From Syntrophomonas sp. (lineage in GTDB: Bacteria; Bacillota; Syntrophomonadia; Syntrophomonadales; Syntrophomonadaceae): a stretch of DNA of 64,000 bases. Both the position numbers and the translations under genes were made by a program. The notes beneath the pieces were generated by a model. That model was not told the DNA's origin. It did not search any database and saw nothing but the letters and a program-made list of their open reading frames with translations. Below, one piece after another: positions 46,757 through 49,290 of the stretch (its first letter is position 1; each line of letters opens with the position of its first letter). The DNA lies in NCBI GenBank assembly GCA_016841245.1, contig JAENZN010000011.1, positions 1 through 64,000 of the forward strand. Direction: 5' to 3'.

Positions 46757-47401
46757 ATGGATAGATTACGAGTAATTCTTTGTAGTGATGCACCGCTTTA
46801 CACTCAAAGTCTGTCAGTGGCATTTGAGGAGAACTATAATTTTAAGGTCCTGGACAAGCTCCAGCCCGGGGAATTGATAGATAAAGCCTGTATTACGCAA
46901 CCGGACATAGTAGTGTGGAAAGTATCTGGTGCCGAGTTTATTCCGTTATTGAAGGATTTAATTAAACACTGCCCCATGCTGCAGACGGTTATTATAGTAG
47001 AACATCCAGCCGATTATGACTTGATTAATATTCTTGATTGTGGAATTCGCGGATGTTTGCCCATGCGTTTAATGCCTCGTCAAATTGTAAAGGCAGTGGA
47101 GTTGATTGTCACCGCAGGAATTGTGTGTATACCCAGGCCAGGTCCTTATACCTATGGGAGCCGCCTGGAGGTAGATGAATTTTCGGGGGCATCGCTGCTG
47201 ACCAGCAGGGAAAAAGAAGTCATCACCTTTTTAGCTCAGGGCTACTCTAACCATGAAATAGCAAAAACTCTTTGTCTATCTGAATCAACCATAAAATCAC
47301 ACTTGCGCAGTGCCTTTAAAAAATTTAATGTCCGTAATCGTACTGAAGTTTTAGCTTTCTTGTACAACCAGGAAAAAGATAAGAAAAGAGTTAATAAATA
47401 A
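46757..47401 (+). CDS. LuxR/NarL-type regulator with degenerate receiver
   Basis: A 214-aa protein. Residues 1-120 have a receiver-like fold, but the strand normally carrying the phospho-Asp reads PDIVVWKVSG, with Lys where Asp is expected. Residues 145-205 are a LuxR HTH (LLTSREKEVITFLAQGYSNH, then CLSESTIKSHLRSAFKKF). It probably works without phosphorylation, perhaps through ligand binding or protein level. No histidine kinase gene is adjacent. Confidence 0.85.
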   Translation: MDRLRVILCSDAPLYTQSLSVAFEENYNFKVLDKLQPGELIDKACITQPDIVVWKVSGAEFIPLLKDLIKHCPMLQTVIIVEHPADYDLINILDCGIRGCLPMRLMPRQIVKAVELIVTAGIVCIPRPGPYTYGSRLEVDEFSGASLLTSREKEVITFLAQGYSNHEIAKTLCLSESTIKSHLRSAFKKFNVRNRTEVLAFLYNQEKDKKRVNK

Positions 47402-47828: not shown

Positions 47829-48716
47829 TCAGTGTACCGTGGTTTGAGTGACTTGGTGAGTAAGTGCAAACGATTTTATATCCGGTGCCAAAAAGGTTCT
47901 GGAAGGAGACTGGATAAATCGACCATTCATAACATAGCCGGCATCCCAACTGCTGTCAACTGATACCCATTCGTCTCCAATTAAAACTTCGTTCCATGCG
48001 TGCAGCTCCCAGCTGTTTCCTGATTCTGCTTGGCCATACACTACCTTGGTAGGAAGGTTGGATGCTCTGGCCAGTGCGGCAAAAAGGAAGGAATAGTCAC
48101 GACATAAGCCCTTTCGATTCTTTAACACCTGACTGGCTGTAACTAACTGAATATCTTTTTTTAAATAAGCATCATAATCATAGGAAATATTTGCAGTAAC
48201 CCATGAATGGATGTTATCCAGCTTTTCTCGGGAGCTCAAGTTGTTTGGTGCGATAGTGGCAGCTAAGTCTACGATATCAGAATTACTGGAATCGACATAT
48301 AGAGAGGCCGAAGTATAACGGCTGTCTTCCATAACCTGATTGCTGACCAGGAAGCGGATGCTGCCATCAAAGCGCTGCGCGTTGTCACCCGCCCATATAG
48401 TATACTGCCCGGATCCGAAGCGCAGATTGATTGTAGTGCTAAAAGTATTCGCGTTTACGTCGGCTTTCCAGGAAGTCAGCTCTTGTTGGGGGCCCCGTAT
48501 GCAAAACCACACTACATCGAGATCTGATGTACCTTCGATCAATAGGTTTCCGTTACAGGTAATTCCATTGCTATTAGGATTCGTCACCTGTATCTTAGAG
48601 TTCCTGAACCCGGTAGCATATGCTGCCTGGGCTTGAGCATCGGTAAAAATGAAGTTAAGACTTACCAGGAAAATAAGAGTTATTAACCCAACGCTGTAAA
48701 TTTTACGAACTTTCAT
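47829..48716 (-). CDS. Secreted transglutaminase-like protein
   Basis: A 295-aa protein. ATG 48716 (MKVRKIYSVGL) is chosen because the earlier ATG at 48749 lies inside a terminator hairpin, and GGGAGG sits just before 48716. The signal peptide ends near AQAAYA. A beta-sandwich region (residues 30-130) precedes a transglutaminase core with KGLCRDYSFLFAALARA (Cys), WELHAWNEV (His) and VSVDSSWD (Asp). It may be a cysteine protease or cross-linker at the cell surface. Its leader carries a c-di-GMP-I riboswitch. Confidence 0.85.
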   Translation of the reverse strand: MKVRKIYSVGLITLIFLVSLNFIFTDAQAQAAYATGFRNSKIQVTNPNSNGITCNGNLLIEGTSDLDVVWFCIRGPQQELTSWKADVNANTFSTTINLRFGSGQYTIWAGDNAQRFDGSIRFLVSNQVMEDSRYTSASLYVDSSNSDIVDLAATIAPNNLSSREKLDNIHSWVTANISYDYDAYLKKDIQLVTASQVLKNRKGLCRDYSFLFAALARASNLPTKVVYGQAESGNSWELHAWNEVLIGDEWVSVDSSWDAGYVMNGRFIQSPSRTFLAPDIKSFALTHQVTQTTVH

Positions 48717-48734
48717 CCCTGCTATTCCTCCCGT

Positions 48735-48764
48735 CAAAAAAACCTGCATGCCAGCATACAGGTT
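48735..48764 (-). terminator. Riboswitch expression-platform terminator
   Basis: On the minus strand AACCTGTATGC pairs with GCATGCAGGTT around two bases and runs straight into seven T. It lies between the aptamer and the ribosome site of the transglutaminase gene. Confidence 0.8.
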
Positions 48765-48785
48765 AATTGCACTATAGTAGAAATA

Positions 48786-48866
48786 TACCGGTAACTGGCT
48801 GGCATAACGGTAAAAACCATTTTAGCCCCTGTAGCTTTGCGTCACCATTTTTCAATGGTTTTGCCT
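48786..48866 (-). ncRNA. Cyclic di-GMP-I (GEMM-I) riboswitch aptamer
   Basis: The minus strand has the hallmarks of GEMM-I in order: GGCAAAACC, a CCATT-GAAA-AATGG hairpin with GNRA tetraloop, TGACGCAAAGC, AGGGGCTAAAATGG, and ATGCCAGCCAGTTACCGG closing. A promoter stands about 45 bp upstream and a terminator follows, so it should control transcription of the transglutaminase gene. Whether c-di-GMP turns it on or off cannot be read directly. Confidence 0.85.
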
Positions 48867-48911
48867 TTTTCATTTTTATGATCTTCCATTTATAAATTAG
48901 GAAGTAAAAAC

Positions 48912-48940
48912 AATATACTATATTGAATAATATTTGTCAA
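48912..48940 (-). promoter_or_regulatory. Promoter for riboswitch-transglutaminase unit
   Basis: On the minus strand TTGACA (48935-48940), a 17-bp spacer and TATATT (48912-48917). The expected transcript start is about 40 bases before the aptamer. Confidence 0.7.
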
Positions 48941-49164
48941 CAATTAAGGAAAAATTAACTATAAATTATTAAATATTATTAAATATTGCAATTATTCGGG
49001 ACAAAGGAGAGGGCATTAAAGCAATAAAAATGAATGAGAGGATAATATCGGGACGAGACAATCCTATCTGAGGATCAGGTAATCTGTTCTAAAGGATAAA
49101 AAATATATGATAAAACCTGCGGCATAATTAAAGGTGCAATTTAGCTCGCTTCGCTGGAAATAAT

Positions 49165-49290
49165 AAAGAAGCCTGCTCAAGCAACGTACTTTAAGGTACA
49201 GGGACACACCGTCTGCGAAGGAATGTCCCTGGGTATGTGCCTCAATCGCAGGCTTTTCTTATGCTCTGATTTTCATTTCTTCATAGTTTT
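49165..49290 (-). repeat. Inverted third copy of repeat family A
   Basis: On the minus strand it reads GAAATGAAAATCAGAGCAT, AAGCCTGCGATTGAGGC, an extra hairpin (CAGGGACA / TGTCCCTG), then AAAGTACGTTGCTTGAGCAGGC. The same ordered blocks occur at 35.5 and 35.7 kb. The outer parts AAGCCTGC / GCAGGCTT pair. Most of the 48950-49160 stretch next to it holds nothing recognised. Confidence 0.7.

Follow-up and report, generated by a model that had tools for sequence, protein, structure and literature searches.

What does the leader in front of a transglutaminase-like gene of Syntrophomonas sp. do, and in which direction would c-di-GMP move expression of that gene? The window, meaning the whole stretch of DNA analysed, comprises 64,000 nucleotides, and its control region had been described from the letters alone as a promoter, a c-di-GMP-I aptamer, a terminator and a ribosome site preceding a secreted enzyme. 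In our judgement it is quite likely that a class-I c-di-GMP riboswitch controls transcription of this single, putatively secreted cysteine enzyme, most likely as an OFF switch. The features on which the argument turns are as follows.

48912–48940, minus strand: promoter TTGACA-17-TATATT, 11 of 12 consensus matches; hexamers and spacer common to L007, L008 and L009
48787–48875, minus strand: c-di-GMP-I (GEMM-I) aptamer, matched by RF01051 over the full model
48798–48805, minus strand: aptamer segment AUGCCAGC (3' side of P3), proposed antiterminator strand A, complementary to terminator GCUGGCAU
48748–48755, minus strand: terminator segment GCUGGCAU, loop side, proposed switching strand T, from its complementarity to AUGCCAGC and from folding
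48736–48764, minus strand: intrinsic terminator (computed), a 10-pair hairpin (48764–48741) and seven T (48742–48736)
48736–48747, minus strand: GCAGGTTTTTTT, common to both cassettes of relatives; candidate deletion junction from alignment to L007 and L008
48727–48732, minus strand: ribosome-binding site GGGAGG, read directly, 10 nt before the ATG at 48716
47829–48716, minus strand: predicted secreted transglutaminase-like protein, 295 aa (PF01841; triad invariant in 11 sequences; pLDDT 83.8)

Leader and enzyme gene

A cmscan search against all of Rfam placed RF01051 (c-di-GMP-I) at 48875–48787 (−), covering positions 1–87 of the 87-position model with 82.2 bits and an E value of 1.2e-14; the gathering score of 35 is exceeded over the whole model. 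The GNRA hairpin CCAUU-GAAA-AAUGG and the ACGCAAAGC core, from which the sequence-only reading had called a GEMM-I aptamer, both fall within this alignment, and the Infernal search that it had proposed as a check thus bears the call out. No second Rfam family or locus above cut-off was returned by cmscan in the 64 kb window.

The other elements of the control region were also found where they had been placed. TTGACA (48940–48935) and TATATT (48917–48912) are separated by a 17-nt spacer on the minus strand. A consensus scan of the region gave no excess of promoter-like sites (5 found vs 5.2 expected in shuffles), and sites matching the terminator consensus were likewise no commoner than in shuffles and are weak evidence alone; the promoter is convincing because L007, L008 and L009 have identical hexamers at the same 17-nt spacing ahead of their first cassette. 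The terminator hairpin, AACCUGUAUG-CUGG-CAUGCAGGUU, has a dG of −12.3 kcal/mol and runs into the seven T, after which comes the ribosome site (GGGAGG, 48732–48727). A gene start at 48716 agrees with this spacing and with the first residues of the protein, which are conserved in the alignment with L007–L009; an alternative in-frame ATG at 48749 sits within the terminator. The span of 48716–48940 originally assigned to the system does cover promoter to start codon, but the enzyme gene itself extends to 47829.

The encoded protein matches Transglut_core (PF01841) with 77.6 bits (cut-off 23) over residues 151–254, and also DUF553. C205 (GLC), H239 (HAW) and D254 are invariant across the alignment of 11 orthologues, as expected of the Cys-His-Asp enzyme named at the outset. 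The N-terminus, with basic residues and a hydrophobic stretch up to AQAQA, has a signal-peptide pattern to the eye; this judgement, made from sequence and structure model rather than by a trained predictor, suggests that the enzyme is secreted. The model comprises a helix, a beta-rich domain (~42–126) and the enzyme domain (pLDDT 83.8, pTM 0.57).

Among solved structures, 3isr and 9crn (TglA) come closest. For the catalytic domain, 3isr, a putative cysteine protease of Cytophaga hutchinsonii, ranks first both by sequence (E 6.4e-7) and by fold, although good alignment is confined to the domain core, at ~18% identity. ‘Transglutaminase’ is to be read as the name of a fold, with protease or amidase chemistry equally possible. 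LapG, a c-di-GMP-linked transglutaminase-like cysteine protease, is distantly similar in fold, through a LapG-containing entry ranked lower among the structural matches (4u65 chain E, E 3.8e-4), and shares the link to c-di-GMP, whereas the present enzyme would be controlled by a riboswitch and not by a LapD-type receptor. Membership of the LapG family (peptidase C93) was rejected, with no LapG Pfam match at E 0.1 in any of the 11 members, and the match to NCBIfam NF045980 fell far under cut-off.

The enzyme gene stands alone on its strand; a gene for a LuxR/NarL-type regulator (46757–47401, +) lies downstream and is convergent. Such a regulator also adjoins the enzyme gene in L007, L008, L009, L011 and L013, and in L013 it follows on the same strand, where it could share the riboswitch.

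Direction of the switch

Between the end of the aptamer (48787) and the start of the hairpin (48764) lie 22 nt, without overlap, so both can coexist. Given this arrangement, and since GCUGGCAU in the terminator is complementary to AUGCCAGC in the aptamer, as in the topology of Cd1, c-di-GMP is predicted to stop transcription; the sequence-only reading had named no direction. In Cd1, an OFF switch, aptamer and terminator can likewise coexist and an antiterminator competes (PMC9262584). Cd1, from the flgB leader of Clostridioides difficile, shares with the present leader its aptamer class, a separate downstream terminator and an alternative pairing between the 3' side of the aptamer and the terminator; it differs in preceding a flagellar operon rather than one secreted enzyme gene, and the ligand response here is a predicted one. 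At high c-di-GMP, the aptamer would be held together and its 3' segment made unavailable, the downstream hairpin would form, and RNA polymerase would halt on reaching the seven U. When c-di-GMP is low, that segment would instead pair with the terminator as an antiterminator and the gene would be read, so that the enzyme would be secreted in the low-c-di-GMP (free, dispersing) state.

Folding is consistent with this scheme. In partial transcripts of 156–164 nt, the lowest-energy fold contains most of the pairing between the two segments. For the full-length transcript the antiterminator form (−41.7 kcal/mol; MFE −43.1) is slightly favoured over aptamer plus terminator (−39.8 kcal/mol), and ligand binding could therefore tip the balance; energy differences of 2–3 kcal/mol are within model error. 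The leader combines a non-overlapping terminator with a proposed antiterminator built from the aptamer 3' side and the terminator, but for the window alone this duplex is only modestly better than in shuffles (p 0.033 and 0.068).

Among other leaders, the aptamer–terminator complementarity is strong against shuffles in L018 and L020 and weak in L013 and L019, and some orthologous cassettes do not have it in the shuffle test (for example the proximal cassette of L009, p 0.81). The relation is found with different letters in L010 (CAGUUGCCGG × CCGGUAACUG) and L020 (GGGUUGCC × GGCAACCC), and again in L018 and L022. In L011 and L012, no U-run terminator was found by the rule used, so the expression platform varies. 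A covariation test in which aptamers and terminators were swapped between genomes proved weak because the 3' ends of the aptamers are alike.

The same riboswitch and gene might instead form an ON switch, in which c-di-GMP would raise expression and the enzyme would crosslink or mature surface proteins during attachment or aggregation. Crosslinking is the activity of true transglutaminases, and class-I ON switches are known in Gram-positive bacteria. One of them, Bc2, stands before an adhesin gene (PMC6366702). In the characterized pilM ON switch, however, the terminator takes up aptamer nucleotides and the two structures are mutually exclusive (PMC9262584), whereas here the aptamer has ended before the hairpin begins and the competing pairing works against the terminator. 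In C. difficile, every one of the seven class-I switches that function is an OFF switch (PMC6366702). An ON switch is improbable, and, given a working switch, we favour the OFF direction with some confidence.

Conservation and probable tandem ancestry

Eleven full-length orthologues from three families of one order were compared, that of the window included; the other ten are 42–88% identical to it, the relatives at 81 and 88% being Syntrophomonas MAGs. In 11/11, c-di-GMP-I lies directly upstream, with one to three aptamers each: one in L006 (the window) and L011, L012, L013, L014 and L015, two in L007, L008, L009 and L016, and three in L010, as also in the truncated L019. Because the genome of a typical relative has only one to a few such aptamers, this pairing is not due to chance; the c-di-GMP-I aptamer before the transglutaminase-like gene is genuine and well conserved. 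In L010 (2410–2783) and L019 (397–792), three consecutive aptamers precede one transglutaminase-like gene, and a terminator-like hairpin stands after every one of them.

Distant transglutaminase-domain proteins at L018, L020, L021, L022, L026 and L035 have c-di-GMP-I or c-di-GMP-I-GGC aptamers upstream, and the remaining distant transglutaminase-domain loci fetched have neither. In a 2025 survey, yebA/COG1305 ‘transglutaminase-like enzymes’ of Bacillota are listed among the genes enriched for tandem c-di-GMP-I (PMC12452182), so the pairing was already known. Riboswitch class and enzyme superfamily are the same as here, whereas the leaders described there are tandem and ours is a single cassette, apparently tandem-derived. 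The leader in the window is thus a new example of a reported pairing and not a new kind of system.

The nearest relatives with the gene, three genomes of the same genus (G001, G002 and G003), carry two cassettes, both of them followed by a terminator, and in these leaders the sole recognized promoter precedes the first. Compared with the distal cassette of L007, the window is 87% identical in the promoter region, 97% in the aptamer, 86% in the linker and 100% in the terminator stem; the corresponding values for the proximal cassette are 62, 93, 64 and 82%. From the T-run to the ATG the order is reversed, with 96% identity to the proximal and 69% to the distal sequence. The window cassette is therefore a hybrid, distal-like up to GCAGG-T7 and proximal-like thereafter, and a deletion of ~0.2 kb between the two GCAGG-T7 stretches of a tandem pair is its probable origin. 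Assembly collapse was considered and is unlikely, because the junction falls within 12 shared bases, outside the ~60-base stretch common to the two aptamers of L007.

Loss of one of two cassettes, to which the hybrid junction and the three two-cassette orthologues of the same genus point, might have left a real aptamer that no longer switches, and some c-di-GMP riboswitches of C. difficile are non-functional (PMC6366702). Yet promoter, full-length aptamer (82.2 bits), terminator and ribosome site are all kept in register, and L011–L015 have a single aptamer at the same gene, which makes such a remnant very unlikely. Leaders of this gene with one, two or three cassettes occur among close relatives, and comparing them would give a direct test of the purpose of tandem riboswitches. 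The interest of the leader lies in this tandem-to-single series and in the predicted OFF logic; its kind is ordinary.

Ligand, host genome and biological role

The best-matching family is c-di-GMP-I, and the GG in GGCAAA, the A in GCAAAG and the C in UUACC, which we tentatively assign to pocket positions 20, 47 and 92, would correspond to G20, A47 and C92; the aptamer is predicted to bind c-di-GMP. Close class-I relatives and the G20A mutant of GEMM-I bind cGAMP (PMC6274999), but with this family and these bases it is scarcely credible that 3',3'-cGAMP, or another cyclic dinucleotide, is the ligand here in place of c-di-GMP.

A search of the genome for diguanylate cyclases, suggested together with the original riboswitch call, returned 14 GGDEF matches (13 above cut-off), alongside 2 EAL and 13 HD_5 (HD-GYP-type) matches; the genome is thus rich in enzymes for c-di-GMP synthesis and breakdown. 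The genome contains five c-di-GMP-I aptamers, and the four besides that of the window score 38–72 bits. The second best (L002:1501–1593, −; 72.1 bits) is followed by a terminator-like hairpin. The low-scoring matches (L003:1501–1589, L004:1501–1589 and L005:1501–1571; 38–50 bits) had no clear terminator plus antiterminator by the rule used; they could be decayed copies, copies acting on translation, or matches due to chance.

By analogy, at low c-di-GMP the enzyme probably cleaves or trims proteins of the surface or the matrix, and a role in surface attachment or biofilms is plausible from the examples of PPEP-1 and LapG. PPEP-1/Zmp1 of C. difficile, a secreted protease behind a class-I switch turned down by c-di-GMP, frees surface adhesins (PMC6366702); the layout is that predicted here, in a zinc metalloprotease rather than a Cys-His-Asp transglutaminase fold. 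Syntrophomonas species live in syntrophy and aggregate with methanogens (PMC11224092), a lifestyle that makes a dispersal role attractive as a hypothesis, and the window provides a clean, testable leader in such a genus. Almost no literature was found on c-di-GMP riboswitches in Syntrophomonas. A more speculative extension, which we hold only tentatively and think doubtful, is an order-wide dispersal switch in syntrophs: a fall in c-di-GMP would release a secreted transglutaminase-like protease, freeing cells from aggregates with methanogens, and the number of tandem cassettes (1, 2 or 3), changing by inter-terminator deletion, would determine how sharp the response is.

Upstream of the promoter, at 49140–49270 (−), lies a structured intergenic hairpin with the outer stem AAGCCUGC/GCAGGCUU and a fold z-score of −2.4. 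It matches no Rfam family. At 16 other places the genome matches it in full or in part, most closely at 90% over 105 bases, and it resembles a modular interspersed palindromic repeat.
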